DNA from: Acidobacteriota bacterium
GTDB taxonomy: Bacteria > Acidobacteriota > Terriglobia > Versatilivoradales > Versatilivoraceae
Reading direction: 5' to 3'
DNA length: 40,930 nt
NCBI GenBank assembly: GCA_022826755.1
Contig: JAJDUG010000015.1
Location: forward strand, 1-40,930
Both the position numbers and the translations under genes were made by a program. Under the pieces are notes generated by a model. The model worked only from the letters and a program-made list of their open reading frames with translations, did no database searches and was not told the DNA's origin. Positions 30,450-40,930 of this stretch are shown one piece after another (the first letter of the stretch is position 1; each line of letters starts with the position of its first letter).

Positions 30450-33400
30450 CTACCTCCTTCGATATCTTTCCCAGGCCGCCTCGTCCGGCACTCCGCGGCT
30501 GAACAGCACCTCGATCTCCCGCTCTTGCGCCGCAGCAGCCTCCGCCGAAACCTGCGCCCCGTCCGCAGTCCCGTCTCCGCGAAGAATACTCAGTACGTGT
30601 CCGCTCCCGGGGTCCCGCGTGATCGTCGTGGGTTGCCTGCTTCCCGCGTCCAGGCTGACTGACCCGACCGGGCCGGTCAGCGTGATCCGCTCGAGCCGTC
30701 CGGCCCATTCGGGCCGCACGGGAAGGGCGAAGGCGAAGGACGGCGCGCCGCCGTGCGACACCCCGGGCATGTCGAATCCCAGCGAGAACAGCACTTCGCC
30801 GCCTGCGTTCTCGCCCGTAATCTTGTACGCGCCGCGTACCGGTGGGAGCATCGGGGGCGCGTCGACCAGGAAGGCGGGCTCCAGGACCGGAGCCCCCGCC
30901 TCGTCCAAACCACCCCAGAGCAAAAGCGACTGTACGGTGCCCGCGCGCCTGTCGGCCGCCCCCGCCGCAGCCTGCCGGTCCAAACGGTAGAGCAGTGCCT
31001 TGGTGAAGTGGTAGTCGCTGATCCACTGGGGTGAACAATAAGCCATCAGGTCCTTGTGGGAGGGCGGAACCAGTCCCCCGCCGCGGAAGTCGTAGCCCCA
31101 CGCCCCGATCGAGGCGGTCGCCGACGGGAACCACAGGTCGGGAGCGCCGGCGCCCCCGCATGGGGCGTGAGACAGGTTCAGGTTGTGGCCCAGTTCGTGC
31201 GCGACCGTGTAGTCCCCGGGCGCCACCACGCTCGACTCGCCCGGCGTGTGCGCCACGCCGATCGAACCCGTGAGGTTCGCCATGGAACCCATGTAGTAGC
31301 CCGTCCCCCCCTCCATCACGCGGATCGCTTCCACCTCCCGGAGCAGTTCAAAGGCATCGCGGGTCGAGGTGCGCACGGCGTCGTGGACCACCAGCTCGAA
31401 CTCGCTGATGGGCAGCAGCGTACGCATCGGCCGGAAGAGCGGACTCTCGGCCGTCAGGCCCCGGCTCAGATCGAGGATCGAGGAGTCCGGACTCTCCCGC
31501 GAGATCATCGGGATCCAGGTCAGCCGCAACGGGGGCATACTCTCCACCTGGACGGTCGCTCGGCCGGTCGCCGGAATGCGGCGCTCGACGCCGAGCCCGG
31601 GGTCGAGCGTGCCCCGGGGATCGACCTCGATCACCATCTCCAGGCCCGGGCGAATTACACCCGCGGGAATCCGGGCGTTGGCAGACTTCGAGAGCCTGCC
31701 CTCCTCGATCTGGATGGGGATGGACTCCGACCCCGCGGGAATGTTCTCGACGTGCACCTCCGCTCCGCCGTCGTAGAACCTGGCCCGCACCGGCGGGATC
31801 GCCGCGTTCGTCTTCCGCCGAGCCGTCACGAACACCCGCAGCAGCGCGGGACGGCCGGCGACCAGCGGCACGGGATAGTCGAGTGATTGCACGGCCTGCG
31901 TGAGATACGCCTTCGAGCGCCCGCCCTTCGAGCAGTGCAGCACGCGCTGGTTTATGACGGTCGCGAGCCACGCTTGGAAACCCGCCTCGTCGGGCGCGCA
32001 AAGCGCCGTGCCCCCGGCGTGGAAGGTGTCGAGCCGATCGAGCGCCGCCAGGCTCGGCGGCAACCCGCCGGCCATTCGCGGGTTGTTGGAGAGATTGAGG
32101 AACTCGAGCCGCGTGAGGCCTCCGAATGTCGTCGGCAGGCCGCCGGTCAGATCGTTGTTCGAAAGGGCCAGGACCCGGGCCGCAGAGAGGCCGCCTAGCT
32201 CGGGCGGGAGTGGTCCCGTCAGGCCGTTGTCGTTGAGCCAGGCGAACTCGAGCGCGGCGAGCGCGCCCAACTCCGCCGGGACCGGCCCCGTGAGGGAGTT
32301 CTGGTTGAGGACCAGCGTGTTCAGGCGGGTGAGATTGCCGAGCGTCTGCGGAATCTCGCCCGAAAGATTGTTTTCGGCAAGATAGAGCTTCTCCAGCCTG
32401 GTGAGCCGGCCGAGTTCCGGCGGGATGGGGCCGCTCAGGTTGCAATACCTCATGACCAGGAACCTGAGCCTCGAAAGGTTGCCGAGTTCGCGCGGTATGG
32501 GTCCCCTTAGCGGAATCCTTTCCAGCCACAGCTCCTCAAGGGCCCCGAGCCGGCCGAGTTCCCCGGGGATCTCGCCCGACAACTGGGTGAAGAACAGGTA
32601 CAACGTCCTGAGGTTGGAGAGATGGCCGAGTTCCGGCGGCAGCGGTCCCTTCAGGGGATTGCCGAACAGTTCGAGCTTCTCGAGGTGTGCGAGCAGTCCG
32701 AGTTCCGCGGGGATGACCCCGGAAAGGTTGTTCTCCGGCAGGACCAGTGAGATAACGCGGCCTCCGGCGTCGATCTCGACGCCGTGCCAATCTCCCAGCG
32801 GCCCGTCCGTCAGCCAGTTGCGCCGGACTTTCCAGTTCGGGCCGCCGGTCGCGTGGTACAGGATCTCCAGGATGTCGCGATCCGTCATCCGGGCACACTC
32901 CACGCCCGTCCCCTCATGCACCGCCACGGTGTTCAGCCAAGCGCGGAAGGGCGCCTCCTGCGGCGCGCACAACCCCGTGCCGGCATAGCTCAACTCCCGG
33001 AGCGGAACCGCCGCGAGAGACGCCGGCAGGCGGCCGTCGAGCGGATTGTGCGCGATCCTGAGTTCGGTCATCGCGGACAGCCGGCCCAGCGCGGCCGGGA
33101 GCTTGCCGGACAGGCCGTTGTTCGTCAGGTCGAGGGCGATCACCCTGCCCAGGGAATCACTCTCGACGCCGTGCCATCCCGCGACTGCCGGTCCGGACAG
33201 CCAGCCGCCCGCGTTCGTCCAGCCGGCGCCGCCCGTCGCCTCGTACAGGGCCCTGAGCCCGGCTTGGTCGGACTCGTTGCAGAAACGCGTGGTGGGCTCG
33301 CCGGACACGCGCGCCGACCATGCCACGAAGGCGGCGGTGCCCGGCAGGCAGAGGTACAGGTTCCGGTGCTCCGGGAAGGCGAAGCTGAACCCCTCCAGTC

Positions 33401-35642
33401 CCGATCCCAGAAAACTGCTCGGAACCGGGCCGTGCAGGATATTGCCATGGAGGAGCAGCGTGTAGAGGCCCGGTATCGCCAGTTGGGGCGGAACCTCGCC
33501 CGTCAGATCGTTATGGCTCAGGTCGAGCCACTCCAGATTGGAGAGGTCGCCGAGTTGCGGCGGGATGGTGCCGCTCAGCCGGTTGTTGGAGACGCCGAGC
33601 GTGGTCATGCGGGCCAGCCGGCCGAGTTGCGGCGGAATCTCGCCTGTCAGGTCGTTCCGGCTCAGGACCAGGTATGAAAGCCTGGACAGGCGCGCGATTT
33701 CGGTCGGGATCGTGCCGCCGAGCGTGTTGTTTTCCAGACTCAGTCGTTCGAGACGGGTCAATTGGGTGATCTCGGCCGGGATCCGGCCGACGAGGTTGTT
33801 CGAATCGAGTTCCAGGCGGACAACCCGTCCCGCCCCATCCACCTTGACGCCGTGCCAGCTTCCGAGCGGCGCCTCCGTCAGCCAGTTGGTCCGTTTGATC
33901 CAGTTGGTTCCACCACTGGCTTCGTACAAGACCGTCAATACCCCGCGCTCCGTGACGGCCACTCGGATGACGGTCGACGCCGTCGCCGTGACACCATCCC
34001 CCGACGTGACGGTGATCCGGTAGGTCGTGGTGACGGTCGGTGACACCTCCCGCGAGCCGGACGGCCCCACCTCGCCGACATCGGGCGTGATCGTCGCGCC
34101 CACCGCGTTCGAGGAGGACCAGGTCAACGTCGCCCTATCGCCCCAATCGATCGACGCGGGCAATGCGGACAACCTCACCGCCGGCCGAATCGGGTCGATC
34201 ACGGCCGGCGGCAGCGTATTGAAGGTGATGATCGCGCGGTCCGGCTCCAACTCGAAGTGCAGCCCGATGACGGCAACCTCCCGGTCGCATCCCACCCGCG
34301 CCGTGCCGCCGCGAAAGCCTTCCGGAATCTCGACAGCGGCGTTGAGCATCCGCGCCACGTTGGTCTTCGCGGGCACCGTTATCGCTCCTGCGCCCAGGCT
34401 CATTCCTTCACTGTCTCGGAGCACGATGCGGCAGGTGGCGTCGGCGGGCGTGTCGTTCGCGATCGCCAACCCGACGGTTCCCGCCGCCGTCAGGACCGGA
34501 AGCTGGACGAGTTCGGCGGCTTGCGAGCTGAAGACCGTGGCCATGCCCACCGGCCTTCCCTCCCCGCCGATCGACGCAAACGCCACTTGGGCCACGACGG
34601 GAACCCCGCAATCGAGCGTGGCGTAACCGGACGCCACGGCCGCTTCGTTCCGGGTGCGCCATGCCAGGTAACCGCCTGCTCCCGGCAGCTCGAAGGTCGC
34701 CGTCACACCCGCCGCCGTGATGCCGCCGGCGTCTTCGAACCGGTCCAGACTCAGGCCGTGCAGTTGGAGCGTGCAGGGACTCGCCGACTGGGAAACATTG
34801 GTGACCAGCAGGACAGATTGCCATCCGCCCCCGTCGGCGATATGCGGCAACCGGTGAAAGCGTTTCGCCTGCAGGTCGGATGGATAGGGAGACGCATCGA
34901 GAATCGCCGGCGGCAGCGTGTTGAAGGTGACGATGCTCCCATCGGACTCCAGCTCGAAATGGAGTCCGACCATGGAGACCGGCTGATCGCAGGAAACCGT
35001 TGCCGACCCTTCCCGGAAGGTTTCCGGAATGGCGATGACGGCGTTGAGCATGTGCGACCGGTTGCTCTTCGAGGGCACCGACAGCACAGCCTCGCCCAGA
35101 GCCACCCCTCGGGTGTCTTGGAGGACAACGTCGCAAGAGGAGTTTGCGTTCTCATCGTTCGCAATCGCGAAGCCGAGCGTGCCCGCCCGCGTCAGGACCG
35201 GAAACTGGAATTCCCGGCCGGCCTGCGAGCTGAACACCGTGGCGATCCCCGCCGGACGCTCCCCCTGGCCGATCGACGCGAACACGACTTGCACCACGAC
35301 GGGCGCCGCGCAATCCAGCGTCGCGTACCCCGAAGCCAGCGCCGCTTCATTGCGGCTCTCCCAGACCAGGTTTCCTGCATGCGCCGGCAGCTCGAACGTC
35401 GCGCTGGAGCCCGATGCCGTCACGCCGTCGACCTCTTCGAACCGGTCCACGGTCAGACCGTGCAGCTCCAGCATGCAGAAGCTCGCCGACTGCGCCACGT
35501 TCGTCACCAGCACCGACGATCGCCACCCGTCGCCGTCGGCGATGTGCGGCAGCAGGTGAACCCGCTTCGCCTGCGCGTCGGACTGGGCGATGGCGGGCAG
35601 CGCCGACAGGAGAACCATCAAGGACACCGCCATTCTACTCAT
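30450..35642 (-). CDS. giant secreted LRR protein with zinc-metalloprotease domain
   Basis: A 1730-residue secreted mosaic. Signal peptide 1-20 (SLMVLLSALPAIAQ). Two homologous ~230-residue modules at about 24-250 and 260-485, both ending FNTLPPA. An Ig/PKD-like domain follows (about 490-560). Three leucine-rich blocks come next, each opened by a LYEA(S/T)GGxxW...WHGV cap, at about 564-770, 795-900 and 917-1215, with plant-type repeats of the LTGEIPPQLG form. After a beta-rich linker comes HELGHNLNLSH at about residue 1482 (HExxHxxxxxH), with a Met-turn-like DLMAYC near 1535, which fits a metzincin. Start: the ATG before the signal peptide; an in-frame TTG at 35687 is unlikely. Likely a cell-surface or secreted protease with ligand-binding repeats; target unknown. 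Confidence 0.85.
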   Translation of the reverse strand: MSRMAVSLMVLLSALPAIAQSDAQAKRVHLLPHIADGDGWRSSVLVTNVAQSASFCMLELHGLTVDRFEEVDGVTASGSSATFELPAHAGNLVWESRNEAALASGYATLDCAAPVVVQVVFASIGQGERPAGIATVFSSQAGREFQFPVLTRAGTLGFAIANDENANSSCDVVLQDTRGVALGEAVLSVPSKSNRSHMLNAVIAIPETFREGSATVSCDQPVSMVGLHFELESDGSIVTFNTLPPAILDASPYPSDLQAKRFHRLPHIADGGGWQSVLLVTNVSQSASPCTLQLHGLSLDRFEDAGGITAAGVTATFELPGAGGYLAWRTRNEAAVASGYATLDCGVPVVAQVAFASIGGEGRPVGMATVFSSQAAELVQLPVLTAAGTVGLAIANDTPADATCRIVLRDSEGMSLGAGAITVPAKTNVARMLNAAVEIPEGFRGGTARVGCDREVAVIGLHFELEPDRAIITFNTLPPAVIDPIRPAVRLSALPASIDWGDRATLTWSSSNAVGATITPDVGEVGPSGSREVSPTVTTTYRITVTSGDGVTATASTVIRVAVTERGVLTVLYEASGGTNWIKRTNWLTEAPLGSWHGVKVDGAGRVVRLELDSNNLVGRIPAEITQLTRLERLSLENNTLGGTIPTEIARLSRLSYLVLSRNDLTGEIPPQLGRLARMTTLGVSNNRLSGTIPPQLGDLSNLEWLDLSHNDLTGEVPPQLAIPGLYTLLLHGNILHGPVPSSFLGSGLEGFSFAFPEHRNLYLCLPGTAAFVAWSARVSGEPTTRFCNESDQAGLRALYEATGGAGWTNAGGWLSGPAVAGWHGVESDSLGRVIALDLTNNGLSGKLPAALGRLSAMTELRIAHNPLDGRLPASLAAVPLRELSYAGTGLCAPQEAPFRAWLNTVAVHEGTGVECARMTDRDILEILYHATGGPNWKVRRNWLTDGPLGDWHGVEIDAGGRVISLVLPENNLSGVIPAELGLLAHLEKLELFGNPLKGPLPPELGHLSNLRTLYLFFTQLSGEIPGELGRLGALEELWLERIPLRGPIPRELGNLSRLRFLVMRYCNLSGPIPPELGRLTRLEKLYLAENNLSGEIPQTLGNLTRLNTLVLNQNSLTGPVPAELGALAALEFAWLNDNGLTGPLPPELGGLSAARVLALSNNDLTGGLPTTFGGLTRLEFLNLSNNPRMAGGLPPSLAALDRLDTFHAGGTALCAPDEAGFQAWLATVINQRVLHCSKGGRSKAYLTQAVQSLDYPVPLVAGRPALLRVFVTARRKTNAAIPPVRARFYDGGAEVHVENIPAGSESIPIQIEEGRLSKSANARIPAGVIRPGLEMVIEVDPRGTLDPGLGVERRIPATGRATVQVESMPPLRLTWIPMISRESPDSSILDLSRGLTAESPLFRPMRTLLPISEFELVVHDAVRTSTRDAFELLREVEAIRVMEGGTGYYMGSMANLTGSIGVAHTPGESSVVAPGDYTVAHELGHNLNLSHAPCGGAGAPDLWFPSATASIGAWGYDFRGGGLVPPSHKDLMAYCSPQWISDYHFTKALLYRLDRQAAAGAADRRAGTVQSLLLWGGLDEAGAPVLEPAFLVDAPPMLPPVRGAYKITGENAGGEVLFSLGFDMPGVSHGGAPSFAFALPVRPEWAGRLERITLTGPVGSVSLDAGSRQPTTITRDPGSGHVLSILRGDGTADGAQVSAEAAAAQEREIEVLFSRGVPDEAAWERYRRR

Positions 35643-35714
35643 GGGTTTCTCAACAACTCCTGTCCCACGTTCGGGATTCGCGCCCAACGCGATTGTGGTC
35701 TTGCCGGAAACGAC

Positions 35715-35751
35715 AGTGAATAGTGGATAGTGATTAGTGGATAGTGGTTAG
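35715..35751. repeat. short tandem repeat AGTGGAT/AGTGATT type
   Basis: About five imperfect 7-bp units (AGTGAAT AGTGGAT AGTGATT AGTGGAT AGTGGTT). Same design as the array at 12836-12866. Confidence 0.7.
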
Positions 35752-35760
35752 ACCCAAACG

Positions 35761-35892
35761 TTAAGCACCTTGTCGATCTCGGCGCAGTCGTTCAAAAAAC
35801 GCAACCAAACCATCAGGCACGTACCGGTTCCCGAATTCCTCCGTTGACCACTCTCCACTCTTCTGAAGCACCTCTGTTTCACTCTGAATGAT
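35761..35892 (-). pseudogene. possible 3' fragment of a decayed gene
   Basis: One frame reads IIQSETEVLQKSGEWSTEEF..., continues VPDGLVAFFERLRRDRQGA and stops. The composition is protein-like (helical, charged, aromatic) and unlike the neighbouring non-coding sequence, but no start or upstream domain remains. I do not recognise the family. Confidence 0.25.
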
Positions 35893-36043
35893 CCGTCCCG
35901 TCGTGGGGGCGGGGGCGCGGCTCGCCGGAAAGCCGCCTTTCCAAACCGTGCGGACACCTTGATCGCGGGGCTTGCGTTGACGGCAAGACCGGACTCCGGC
36001 CCTGCAAGTTCACCTGCCGGGGTGGCGACCGGCCGGCCGGCAA

Positions 36044-39000
36044 TCAAGGGACACCGCGACCCGATGCGTCTTTTCCCGATCCACTCTCGCTGCCGGCGGA
36101 AACACCGCCGGGGTGATGAAGCGGAAACACCGGCAGGGTGATGAAGGTGCGGGTGCCGGGGTCCATTTCCAGGGCCATGGCGGAAAACAGGTATCCCTCC
36201 ACCGAGGTGCAGCGCAGCGACCCCGAGAAGTCGGACGTTTCGGCGCCGGGGAACGCCGTGTCGATGAGCCAGGACGTCTGCCCGTTGGCCGCCAGAGGGA
36301 AAGTGGCGGAGTCCTGCAACACGCCCTCTTTCATCAAATCGCACCGCAGCAGTCCCGGAACCGGTTCCAGGTTGTGAAGCGCGACCCCCGTGTCGATTCC
36401 CTCCTGCTGGCGGCGCACCGGAATGAGGGCGTCGTGGAGGGTCGAGTCGGCCTCCACCGCACCCACCCCGACGTCGGGGTGTCGAAAGCGGAGCATCCCG
36501 CCGATGGGACCGCCCGAATCCACCCGCAACGATCCGGTCACCAGATCTCCTCTGCCATGAGTCGAAATCGTGAGCACTCCCAGAGGCTCGATCGCGGTGC
36601 GGACCGTCAGGGCGCCGTCCCCGGCGACCGCCAGATCGCCGGTGAGATCCACCACTGATTCGGCGGCAATCGGATTGCCTTGCGTGTCATGGAAGTAAAG
36701 ACCGGGGCGGCTCGGTCGGGTGGATGGATTCACCAGGACGATATCGCTGATCCAGGTCCCGTTGGCGAAGTGCGCAAAGTCCAAGGCGGCGTTATTTTCG
36801 CTTGACCCGATCGAGTCCATGTCAAACTGACTCACCGGCACAACCGGCAGCGTTGTGAAGATGCGCTCGCCCGCATCCTGCTCCACGGCCAAGGCGGTGA
36901 ACCGCCCCCTGCCGGGCGCGGTGCAGCGCACCGACCCGACGAAGTCCGACGTGTCGGTCGTGGTGAACGCCTCCTCGATGAACCAGGACGTTTTCCCGTT
37001 GGCCTCCAGGGGGATCTCCACCTCTTCAAGCACAGCACCCTCGCTCAGCAGTTGGCACCGCACCCGCATCGCCTCCTTTCCCCGGTTGTGGAGCGCCGCC
37101 TCCGTTCGAATTCCTCCCGCTTGGCGGCGGGCCGGGAAAAGGACATCCTGGAGGAGTGGGCCGGCTCCCGCTGCGGCGACCCCCGGGCCCGGGATGCTGT
37201 AACGCACAAACCCGCCGATGGGACCATGGGGGAGAACTTTCAGCGATCCCGCAACCAGCTCCCCTCGACCGTGGGTTGAAATCGTGGTTTTGCCTAGCGG
37301 TACCATCCGCGTGCGGACGGTCAAACTTCCGTCCTCTCGAACCTCCAGATCACCCGTCACATCCACCACGGTTTCCGGGTCGATGAGATGGCCCCCCCGA
37401 TCGTAAAAGTAGAGCGCGGGCCGGATCGGATCGGAGACCAGGTTCACAAGCACCACCTCGGAGGTGATTCCGGTGCCATTGGCGAAATGGGTAAAGTGCA
37501 GAGCCCCCGCTCCCGGAGTGGCCTCGGCCCGATCGGAAGCGCGGCTCTTGCCGTTCCGGTTGTTCACCGCCCGCACCTGAAAGCCGTAGACGGTGCCGTT
37601 GTCGAGGCCGCTGACGGTATGTGAGGTGTCGGTGGAACCGATGGAGGTCCAGCCCCGATTCCCGAATATCCAGTACTCGTAATCCGTGATGGGAGCACCA
37701 CCGTCGCTGTAGGGCGTGTCCCAGGACAGCGTCACCGCTCCATCCTTGCCCTCCGCCTGCAGATTTCTGGGGGCATCCGGCGCCGGTGCGGGCACGGTCG
37801 TGTCCCCCGTGTTGTTCGCTACCGGCTGGTTGCTCAGCCCCTCCGCTTCGTTGCCGGCGGCATCCCGGATCGGGCTTGTCCCCCGCCTGTAGCTCACCGT
37901 GATTCCCGTCTCGCCACGGCCCGCGGCCGGAAGCAGGGTCAGCACCACTGTTCGCCCGCCCAGGGTAACACTGGAGACCGTTCGCGCCGAATCGCCGCCT
38001 GCCAGCGTGAAATCGCCGGGCGGCGGCGTCGAACTCTCGTCCAGAGCTTCCCCATAGGTCAGCGTCAGCGCCGCCCCGTTGACCGCCGCCGAGGAAAGAA
38101 CCGGGTTGACCCTGTCCACAAGGTTGGGGCGGAGGATGAACAGGCCCTGCTCGATCACGCTGACAATCACGATTCCACTGTCGAAGAACGGATAGTTGCT
38201 CCATGTTCCGCCCTCGGTGCTGGCCGAGTCGATGCCGGGGTTGAAGTCGAAGAAGGCCACTTCGCTCAGATTGCCGTTGGCGATGTCGGTGATATCCAGG
38301 ATGCGCAATCCGGCGTAGTAGTTCGACTGGTAGGTATAGCCGCCCTTGACGTACAGGTTGTGGTCGATCGCGCTTGTCGTGGAGTCGTGAGAACCCGTGA
38401 GCACCGGGCCGTCGAGATCGCCCACGTCCCACAGGTAGGTACGGGTATTGGCGACATCGGGGTTGTCCGTTTCATCCGCCTCGTCGCCCAGCAGGAAGTA
38501 GGCCTGATCTTCCGTCAGCCATCCCTGGTGGGTGAACCTGGAGCCGCTGTAGCCGGTGCGGGAGAGCATCTCCGGAACCGCCTTGTTGGTCACGTCGACG
38601 ATCGTCAGCGCGTCCTCGTTCGAGTTGAAGCAGATCTCTTTTCCCTGGTGGTCGAGGTCGGGGCCGACGTAGTTCACACACTGCGCATCGTGGGTGTAGC
38701 CGTCGGCGCTGAAACAACCGGCCGAGGTCGGGTTCGCCGGCGTTTGAATGTCGATCATGTGCAACCCGCCGCCGCAATTGTTCGCGCCTACCACGTAAGC
38801 AAAGCCACTGTCTTCGTTGATCGCGATATTGTGGGCACGCGAGAAGCCGGAGTAGTGGGCGGTTTCGGAAAACGTGGCAGGCGGCGAGGCCGCCGATCTC
38901 AACCGGGTCAGGTCAAAGACCTGCATGCCGCTGTCTTCCGCTTCGGTCACTATGAAGGCATGGTCCGCGTATACCTTGATGTCCCGCCAGTCCGAGTCGG

Positions 39001-39502
39001 TGGAGTGAGGTGGAAGATTGCCAAGATAGATCGGGTTGGCCGGGTCGCTAACGTCCACGAACGACGTGCCGCTTTTCCGGCCCATAATGGCGTACTCCTT
39101 GCCGGTCAAGGAATCCGTCCAGCCCCAGATGTCGTTGGCGATGTCGTCGGCGCTGCCGCCGCCAATGTCGTCCAAAGCCAGAAACGACATCAGGTCGATG
39201 TTTCTGCAGGGGTAGGTTCCCGCCATCCCTTCGCTGCAGATTGTCACCGCCCCGGCGAACGTGGTGGCGAGCAGCAACAGCGCCGCCGCCGACCCGGCGA
39301 AGGCAATGGGGAAGAGAGGGTGCCTCCCGCGCCTCTCGGGCGCGGGACAGGGAGGTTCGGACGGGCAGGTTGGCCGTGGGTAAACTCGGTGCGCAGAAGG
39401 CGCGCCCATGCCGGCCCGGTCGGATGGGCCGTCCGCCCCTTGTCGTCCTGAACCAGATTTGCCGGAAACGCGATGCGCGGATGTAAACATCTTGCTCAGC
39501 AT
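36044..39502 (-). CDS. secreted choice-of-anchor-B-type mosaic protein
   Basis: An 1152-residue exported protein. The hydrophobic signal (FAGSAAALLLLATTFAGA) lies at about residues 68-86, so the true start may be later than 39502. Residues about 87-460 match the choice-of-anchor B/LVIVD type: CRNIDLMSFLAL, NDIWGWTDSLTGKEYAIMG, GTSFVDVSDPANPIYLGNLP, DWRDIKVYADHAFIV, SRAHNIAINEDSGFAYVVGAN. A SwmB-like domain (about 465-565) and a fibronectin type III domain (about 575-665, DAPRNLQAEGKDGAVTLSWD) follow. The C-terminus holds two ~225-residue modules (about 667-895 and 906-1130), each opening FxHFANGT and ending TLPV. The last ~20 residues follow a 25-bp duplication and may be altered. Probably cell-surface; function unknown. 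Confidence 0.8.
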   Translation of the reverse strand: MLSKMFTSAHRVSGKSGSGRQGADGPSDRAGMGAPSAHRVYPRPTCPSEPPCPAPERRGRHPLFPIAFAGSAAALLLLATTFAGAVTICSEGMAGTYPCRNIDLMSFLALDDIGGGSADDIANDIWGWTDSLTGKEYAIMGRKSGTSFVDVSDPANPIYLGNLPPHSTDSDWRDIKVYADHAFIVTEAEDSGMQVFDLTRLRSAASPPATFSETAHYSGFSRAHNIAINEDSGFAYVVGANNCGGGLHMIDIQTPANPTSAGCFSADGYTHDAQCVNYVGPDLDHQGKEICFNSNEDALTIVDVTNKAVPEMLSRTGYSGSRFTHQGWLTEDQAYFLLGDEADETDNPDVANTRTYLWDVGDLDGPVLTGSHDSTTSAIDHNLYVKGGYTYQSNYYAGLRILDITDIANGNLSEVAFFDFNPGIDSASTEGGTWSNYPFFDSGIVIVSVIEQGLFILRPNLVDRVNPVLSSAAVNGAALTLTYGEALDESSTPPPGDFTLAGGDSARTVSSVTLGGRTVVLTLLPAAGRGETGITVSYRRGTSPIRDAAGNEAEGLSNQPVANNTGDTTVPAPAPDAPRNLQAEGKDGAVTLSWDTPYSDGGAPITDYEYWIFGNRGWTSIGSTDTSHTVSGLDNGTVYGFQVRAVNNRNGKSRASDRAEATPGAGALHFTHFANGTGITSEVVLVNLVSDPIRPALYFYDRGGHLIDPETVVDVTGDLEVREDGSLTVRTRMVPLGKTTISTHGRGELVAGSLKVLPHGPIGGFVRYSIPGPGVAAAGAGPLLQDVLFPARRQAGGIRTEAALHNRGKEAMRVRCQLLSEGAVLEEVEIPLEANGKTSWFIEEAFTTTDTSDFVGSVRCTAPGRGRFTALAVEQDAGERIFTTLPVVPVSQFDMDSIGSSENNAALDFAHFANGTWISDIVLVNPSTRPSRPGLYFHDTQGNPIAAESVVDLTGDLAVAGDGALTVRTAIEPLGVLTISTHGRGDLVTGSLRVDSGGPIGGMLRFRHPDVGVGAVEADSTLHDALIPVRRQQEGIDTGVALHNLEPVPGLLRCDLMKEGVLQDSATFPLAANGQTSWLIDTAFPGAETSDFSGSLRCTSVEGYLFSAMALEMDPGTRTFITLPVFPLHHPGGVSAGSESGSGKDASGRGVP
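36097..36146. repeat. 25-bp tandem duplication at the 3' end of the mosaic gene
   Basis: Two adjacent 25-bp copies (36097-36121 and 36122-36146), differing at 2 positions, on CGGAAACACCG...GGGTGATGAAG. Because 25 is not a multiple of 3, the duplication shifts the reading frame for the C-terminal tail. Confidence 0.85.
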
Positions 39503-39691: not shown

Positions 39692-40930
39692 TTACTCCCT
39701 GGCCGGGATATAGGCGCCGTCGCCGGTTCTCTCCCCCGGGGCCCCGCCGTCGTTGACCACCCCGTAGGCCAGGAAGGGATTGGCACCCGAAACCCTGCGG
39801 ATCCGAATGTAGCCCTGCATGGTCCCCGGGGCGTGCTTCAGGACCTGGTTGATCTGCTTGAAACCCTTGGCCGGGACCACCAGCTTGTCTTCCTCCGCCA
39901 TGGTAACGGTCTTGCTCAGAGTGGCCGTCTCCCCGTCGTAGATGTCGATCTCGAAGACGATGTCCCGGCCGTCCATCTCCCCGGTGTTGATCAGGGCCAG
40001 GTTGCTGCGGTTTTCCTCATTCTGCTGCAACCCGTCCACCCAGGCGCTGGTGGTGAATCCCTGACCGTGGGGCACCGCCGTGTAGAAGACGCCGTACTGC
40101 CCCTTGGTCCTGTCGTCCGGGTCTGCCTGCGCCACTACCCGGGCTCCGATCACGATCCCGCTCAGGTCTCCCGCCATCGGACTGGCGATCAGGGGCGCAA
40201 CCAGCCCCATGGGCACGTTGAGGCCCAGGTTCTGGCGGGCATAGGCCAGCGCATGGGGAATGATCAGTTGCTGGCCCGGCAACATCGGCACCGGACCGAA
40301 GGCGGCCGTTTTGTCCGCCGTCCGGATCTTGTCGTGGGTGGCGCTGAACATCACCGACTTCGGCTGGTCCGAAAAATTGGTCAGCGTCAGTTCGGTGGTG
40401 AACTGGTTGATCTCCACCACCGCCGGCAGGGTCTGCCCCATGGCGCCCATCAGCGAGCCGGCGCTCACCGGAAAGACAAAGGAGCCGTCCGAGTTGGCGT
40501 TGTCGTTGATGACCCCGTAGGCATAGAAGGGAGCCATGCCCTCCACCCTCTCCACCTTGACGTAGCCCCCGAACATGGGATCGGCCTTGCCGGCATTTTT
40601 CAGCACTTCGTTTACCTGGTGGAACTCACCCGGTCCCAGCGCGTGTTCCCACACCATTTTGCCGCTCGGATCGGTCGCATTCCCGGAAAAGGCCGTGATC
40701 CTCAAGGTGATGGAGCCCTGCGACCCCATGTTCTGGACGGCCACGTTGGAGCGGTCCCCCGGGTTGTCGCGCAGCCCGCACAGATAGACGTAACCGTTCG
40801 GTCGTCCCGGTATGGACATGCGGCCGGGCCAACCGGACGCTGGCGTTGTCGACGGCCGGCACCAGTCGATGTCCCCTGTGCACGGAGGGCGCCCGGACCG
40901 GATCGGCTCGCTGTTCGACAATGCTTGTCC
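39692..40930 (-). CDS. large secreted-type protein, C-terminal 412 residues (partial)
   Basis: The frame is open to the right window edge, so the N-terminus is missing; a TTG at 40921 is only a chance in-frame codon. Two similar halves are visible, around GDRSNVAVQNMGSQGSITLRI and ENRSNLALINTGEMDGRDIVFEI, each followed by a Gly/Phe-rich GxxHQVNEVLKN / GFKQINQVLKH and an (F)YAYGVINDN / FLAYGVVND stretch. This is an internal duplication of a beta-rich module seen in secreted proteins of uncultivated bacteria; I do not know its function. Its theme resembles the modules of the two mosaic proteins to the left but it is not clearly homologous. The 190-bp gap to the left gene holds nothing recognisable. 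Confidence 0.75.
   Translation of the reverse strand, partial: GQALSNSEPIRSGRPPCTGDIDWCRPSTTPASGWPGRMSIPGRPNGYVYLCGLRDNPGDRSNVAVQNMGSQGSITLRITAFSGNATDPSGKMVWEHALGPGEFHQVNEVLKNAGKADPMFGGYVKVERVEGMAPFYAYGVINDNANSDGSFVFPVSAGSLMGAMGQTLPAVVEINQFTTELTLTNFSDQPKSVMFSATHDKIRTADKTAAFGPVPMLPGQQLIIPHALAYARQNLGLNVPMGLVAPLIASPMAGDLSGIVIGARVVAQADPDDRTKGQYGVFYTAVPHGQGFTTSAWVDGLQQNEENRSNLALINTGEMDGRDIVFEIDIYDGETATLSKTVTMAEEDKLVVPAKGFKQINQVLKHAPGTMQGYIRIRRVSGANPFLAYGVVNDGGAPGERTGDGAYIPARE

Follow-up and report, generated by a model that had tools for sequence, protein, structure and literature searches.

Two neighbouring secreted proteins encoded in the window, a stretch of 40,930 nucleotides from an Acidobacteriota contig, carry four homologous modules of about 225 residues. 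Each module consists of two homologous units of about 108 residues, and the second unit is predicted to share the fold of ASRT and TM1070. The reading we favour, with slightly better than even confidence, is that the modules are ASRAH-like single-chain dyads and tetrads acting outside the cell as a glycan-binding retention module. The features concerned are given below in window coordinates.

30450..35687, minus strand: protein A, with a signal peptide, modules A1-A2 (tetrad), Ig-like linker, leucine-rich repeats and metalloprotease-like region
about 31008-31850, minus strand: metalloprotease-like region of protein A, weak M12/M66 matches (Pfam)
31167-31199, minus strand: HEXXHxxxxxH zinc-site motif of protein A, HELGHNLNLSH (from the sequence)
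about 32088-33899, minus strand: leucine-rich repeats of protein A (Pfam LRR families)
about 33918-34202, minus strand: Ig-like linker of protein A
34203..34868, minus strand: module A2 (dyad), by identity to A1 and profile
about 34548-34868, minus strand: A2 N-unit
about 34203-34547, minus strand: A2 C-unit
34905..35570, minus strand: module A1 (dyad), full-length profile match and AlphaFold2 model
about 35250-35570, minus strand: A1 N-unit
about 34905-35249, minus strand: A1 C-unit
36044..39502, minus strand: protein B, with a choice-of-anchor B domain, SWM repeat, fn3 and, at the C-terminus, modules B1-B2
36125..36796, minus strand: module B2 (dyad), by identity to B1 and profile
about 36461-36796, minus strand: B2 N-unit
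about 36125-36460, minus strand: B2 C-unit
36839..37513, minus strand: module B1 (dyad), by the profile from the A seed and AlphaFold2 model
about 37175-37513, minus strand: B1 N-unit
about 36839-37174, minus strand: B1 C-unit
37532-37777, minus strand: fn3 of protein B (Pfam)
37877-38116, minus strand: SWM repeat of protein B (Pfam)
38129-39238, minus strand: choice-of-anchor B domain of protein B (TIGR04312, E 2.8e-148)
39692..40930, minus strand: protein C, 5'-open at the contig end, with three C-type units at about 39695-40795

The tetrad of protein A is N-terminal, directly after the signal peptide (modules at about residues 41-262 and 273-492), with 1,250 amino acids downstream of it. 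The modules of protein B lie at about residues 665-895 and 906-1135, and B2 ends 27 amino acids before the stop. C-terminal anchors vary in the choice-of-anchor B family, by NCBI's naming, and in protein B the modules occupy the place of that anchor; such a position is not universal, since the modules of protein A are N-terminal. Around the HELGHNLNLSH motif of protein A, M12/M66 matches are all sub-threshold, and the region behind the leucine-rich repeats is possibly a divergent secreted metalloprotease, judging from its sequence. Matches of the repeats themselves to Xop effectors and internalins fell far below cut-offs and reflect generic leucine-rich repeats, and we ascribe no effector meaning to them.

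The initial annotation had proposed a module shared by these two proteins and recognizable by an ordered set of motifs, all of which we found in the modules. The H-x-A-[ND]-G motif is HIADG in protein A (residues 48 and 282) and HFANG in protein B (672 and 911), V-L-V-N reads VLVN in the B modules and VLVTN or LLVTN in the A modules, A-x-x-N takes the forms AIAN (A modules) and ALHN (B modules), and the F-x-TLP endings are FNTLP, FNTLP, FTTLP and FITLP. By BLASTP, A1 and A2 share 62% identity (E 1.6e-103) and B1 and B2 share 53% (E 4e-77). Between A and B modules BLASTP gave no significant match (best E 0.096; B1 is 18-21% identical to the A modules), so that their relation is not demonstrable pairwise. 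Iterative profile searches seeded with the modules, a check suggested alongside the original proposal, did unite them. By its second round, a profile built from A alone matched the whole of B1 and B2 (E 9e-14 at a search size of 50,000), a profile built from B alone matched both A modules (E 1.4e-15 and 2.3e-15), and the two iterations converged on the same total of 101 matches. In 150 genomes of the class, several places were matched by A1 and B1 alike, for example G011:C70:146163-146831. Reversed and shuffled frames used as decoys gave zero matches with any of the four models. These sequence comparisons show that the four window modules are homologous.

The block of about 225 residues is not the basic unit, as had been supposed, since each block contains two homologous halves of about 108 residues. 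Alignment of the N-half with the C-half by hhalign scored 95% (E 4e-8) with 92 modules, against 0.5% for a reversed control, and 96.9% (E 1.7e-10) with 133 modules. The two halves are anchored by N22-G39-G79 and N136-G153-G186, with an Asn-to-Gly spacing of exactly 17 in both. In the 133-module alignment the Asn at the end of strand 2 is near-invariant (98% for N22, 97% for N136) and falls in line with the corresponding Asn of ASRT. When N- and C-halves were aligned jointly, the second part came out plainly misaligned, and that alignment was left out of folding.

Cysteine columns in the 133-module alignment are mostly coupled as pairs. In the first half, Cys 30/85 occur together in 32 of 32-34 sequences; in the second half, 144/192 occur together in 16 of 16-17 and 146/190 in 31 of 31. 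The two second-half pairs are mutually exclusive within a C-unit, an apparent swap of disulfide position in one family or else an alignment shift between subfamilies. A1 and A2 have a pair in both halves, and B1 and B2 in the second half alone. This pattern looks like one disulfide per unit, which would fit a location outside the cytoplasm.

Predicted structures of A1 and B1 had the same best matches, TM1070 and ASRT, for the C-unit. The AlphaFold2 model of A1, made from ten alignment rows, had a pLDDT of 67 overall, with most of the second half at 75-93. Its C-unit (residues 116-211) ranked ASRT 2iia first by VIA-align (Z 12.3, rmsd 2.0, 85 of 89 residues aligned), followed by TM1070 1nc7 (Z 11.5) and then by a next match at 7.8, in a list from which the absence of a family does not exclude that family. 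Foldseek gave ASRT rows a TM-score of 0.73 to the target, though at lower rank; its top rows had TM-scores of 0.2-0.26 and were disregarded. The B1 model (pLDDT 75.7) has about eight strands in each half by DSSP, and its C-unit aligned best with 1nc7 (Z 9.3, 102 of 116 residues, rmsd 2.1), with ASRT at 7.5 and the next match at 4.6. Sequence identity to ASRT and TM1070 in these alignments is 7-13%. The models bear out the all-beta sandwich suggested earlier. The fold is not an undescribed one: it resembles that of the ASRT/TM1070-like ASRAH superfamily, described in 2009 (PMC2739507).

Comparison of profiles points in the same direction. An ASRT profile of 11 members, four from Acidobacteriota and seven plasmid-borne homologues, matched the module C-unit by hhalign at 92.5% (E 4.7e-7, for a single comparison) and in register at the strand-2 Asn; the reversed ASRT profile scored 1.1%. 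Ten control profiles from other domains of the same proteins, some of them shallow (1-5 sequences), reached at most 0.7%; we built these because single-sequence controls are uninformative, single C-units scoring low too. The match of ASRT to the N-half was weak (26%), and the fold assigned to the N-unit rests on its homology to the C-unit and on its own predicted strands. A PDB sequence search with a 62-member profile returned chance-level matches only (best copper nitrite reductase, E 0.059). On plasmids, solo ASRT genes (L151-L153) adjoin genes for D-arabinono-1,4-lactone oxidase or GH15, in keeping with the published sugar-metabolism context.

De Souza, Iyer and Aravind described the ASRAH superfamily as a sandwich of eight strands in two 4-strand repeats, in which strand 2 ends with a near-invariant Asn and strand 1 starts with a conserved Trp, and which has a pocket formed partly by the dimer interface and predicted to bind sugar; of its three families in 2009, the extracellular ones always formed dyads or tetrads (PMC2739507). 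In the literature searched, that paper alone uses the name ASRAH for a protein domain. The sandwich of two 4-strand repeats is found in the modelled C-units of A1 and B1 by whole-domain alignment. Neither unit has a frequent Trp column before strand 2, the nearest frequent Trp (42%) lying 8 residues before the strand-2 Asn, at the start of strand 2. At the positions of the ASRT ligand residues His and Cys, -7 and -3, the modules have T/R/N and A/V, and the SHEshChhN signature is lacking; the PF07100 profile had no match in the modules' own genome. Because the Trp and the ASRT ligand residues are absent, we call the modules ASRAH-like rather than members of ASRAH.

No Pfam or NCBIfam profile matched the four window modules, so the view that they belong to no named family held for these copies; some relatives do weakly match DUF5719 (PF18986). 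Seven of 62 relatives matched it at E<=0.1 (best E 1.6e-8), largely over the stretches covered by the module profile, and some exceeded its curated cut-off of 26.2 bits, while the window proteins had no match. We found no mention of DUF5719 in the literature searched, and our guess is that it is the actinobacterial ASRAH lipoprotein.

Arrays follow a 2-or-4 rule. Among C-terminal arrays with complete 5' ends (n=41), 21 contain 1.9-2.3 units and 20 contain 3.9-4.3, with none between or above, so that all 41 are dyads or tetrads like the extracellular ASRAH families. Arrays end at the module end, at most 15 amino acids from the stop, in 49 of 100 cases, and 12 more do so in a permuted phase. Fourteen proteins have an array displaced by half a unit: its first module typically begins near profile position 50 and its last ends near position 47, within 6 amino acids of the stop in 12 of the 14. 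In L140 the array begins at residue 429, at profile position 52, after a CotH domain whose last residue is 420; shifted arrays in L140, L131, L023, L087, L123 and others begin directly after another domain. A beta-propeller (8 x 56 aa) had been considered for the tails of 54-58 amino acids and was rejected, since these match profile positions 3-49 and are thus permuted half-units. The shifted arrays are circularly permuted: either the sandwich itself is permuted between its two 4-strand repeats, or the half-units at the two ends close a ring.

Of 396 Acidobacteriota genomes sampled, 64 carry the module (E<=1e-10); the survey scored a capped number of candidates in each genome, and copy numbers per genome are to be read as "at least". 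We found no relative on viral contigs or on plasmids. Partner domains include leucine-rich repeats, S8, M6, M10 and trypsin-like peptidases, NHL propellers, CotH, BACON, CARDB and PPC. A signal-peptide-like start was present in 18 of 26 module open reading frames compared with 21 of 182 other long open frames, a contrast from a rough script that is indicative only, since the comparison frames include many non-genes. These starts and the coupled Cys pairs agree with the extracellular setting proposed earlier. Of the attachment or secretion role proposed with it, the use of the module as an add-on to very different secreted proteins fits attachment, and the role itself can be put forward as probable at most. 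A-type LRR proteins whose modules are 62-70% identical also occur in genomes of a different family within the class, at L124 (G011:C84) and L131 (G041:C301), each within about 10 kb of B-type or permuted-module proteins, which indicates a cluster shared across families.

A third neighbour, protein C, went unmentioned in the initial annotation. It has three units of the same superfamily, ending 3 amino acids before the stop, and its intact homologues have four. C-type units match the module N-half at 79-95% by hhalign. Every one of the seven genomes of the genus yields 18-32 matches to the C-type set. Counts are 2-15 in the family's other genera, and nine genomes from other families in the class gave no match. 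In most proteins with the set, which L186-L205 represent, it ends 3-7 amino acids before the stop, and it occurs together with collagenase M9, GSDH/Spondin_N and large LRR proteins. The set has the look of a C-terminal domain for anchoring or sorting that is specific to this lineage.

Under the reading we favour, each module would be a covalent dyad of eight-stranded units of the ASRT/TM1070 (ASRAH-like) fold, and two modules in a row would form a single-chain tetrad in place of the homotetramer of solo ASRT. Neighbouring units would pack as in the TM1070 tetramer and so form clefts that may hold a surface or matrix glycan. Situated outside the cell on secreted mosaic proteins, they would serve as a ligand-binding retention module, so that the protease, LRR or propeller joined to them would stay at the cell surface or bound to a target polysaccharide. 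Binding and looping of DNA have been reported for ASRT (PMC8660804), so the ligand of the superfamily may not be a sugar.

The main rival to glycan binding holds that the modules, and the C-terminal ones in particular, bind no ligand and instead, like the T9SS C-terminal domain, serve for recognition by a dedicated export or sorting machine. The frequency with which arrays end close to the stop, the choice-of-anchor B domain upstream of the modules in protein B and the near-terminal, numerous C-type set across the genus all speak for it, and it suits the C-type set more than it does protein A, whose set is N-terminal. It is difficult to reconcile with that N-terminal set behind a signal peptide, with 1,250 amino acids following, or with a length of 220-450 amino acids, far longer than known sorting tags. 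SprA (TIGR04189) was found in 0 of 8 genomes, a search in which the positive control likewise gave no signal. On this evidence we regard a sorting role as unlikely for the modules as a whole.

We give rather little credence to a further possibility, that the units are passive spacers or oligomerization domains, or bind a non-sugar ligand, and resemble ASRT in fold only. In its favour, the modules do not conserve the ligand residues of ASRT, the reported action of ASRT is on DNA (PMC8660804), and packing in twos or fours could serve stability alone. Set against this, strict 2-or-4 arrays fused to many secreted enzymes resemble accessory binding modules more. Spacer domains usually vary freely in copy number. 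Convergence, in which the modules would be a beta-sandwich family independent of ASRT that arrived at its topology, appears quite improbable. The low identity in structure alignments, the lack of a PF07100 match and the missing hallmark Trp would be expected of convergence; ASRT/TM1070 nevertheless came first with a clear gap in both the A1 and B1 models, and the ASRT profile comparison was significant and in register where ten control profiles gave nothing.

The analysis offers a fold and a testable candidate function for a module found on a sizeable, so far unannotated share of the proteins secreted by an abundant phylum. A superfamily with a disputed ligand, sugar or DNA, gains many natural single-chain tetramers that are good structure targets, and there may be a surface-retention system in Acidobacteriota, whose means of holding secreted proteins are poorly known. 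More tentatively, the modules could represent a fourth, uncatalogued ASRAH-like family that serves Acidobacteriota as a general single-chain surface tetramer, in arrays of two or four units possibly permuted into a closed ring, with the C-type set (18-32 per genome across the genus) taking the place of the usual C-terminal anchors and forming a separate system for sorting or retention.

Among known systems, C-terminal signals such as the T9SS C-terminal domain and PEP-/MYXO-CTERM likewise occur terminally on a wide range of unrelated proteins secreted from a single genome. Those signals are short tags or one domain of about 80 amino acids, whereas module arrays span 220-480 amino acids and are sometimes N-terminal. 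Carbohydrate-binding modules and PPC, CARDB and BACON are also accessory beta-domains on secreted enzymes; the comparisons run with PPC, CARDB and BACON gave no profile similarity to the modules, and the ASRAH topology differs from that of CBM4 (PMC2739507). DUF5719 matches some relatives but not the four window modules. ASRT (PF07100; 2ii7/2iia, and TM1070 1nc7) shares the eight-stranded sandwich of two 4-strand repeats and the Asn at the end of strand 2, at about 2 Å rmsd over 85-102 residues. It is, however, a solo cytoplasmic protein with the SHEshChhN signature, its ligand His and Cys and a conserved Trp, which the modules lack, and it forms a homotetramer where the modules form a tandem tetrad in one chain. 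The extracellular ASRAH families, the amidase tetrads of Chloroflexi and the lipoprotein dyads of actinobacteria, are likewise secreted and occur only as dyads or tetrads, each family, like the modules, having its own residues at the ASRT ligand positions. The modules differ from those described in 2009 in belonging to another phylum, in their many different partners and many copies per genome, and in their circularly permuted arrays and paired cysteines.
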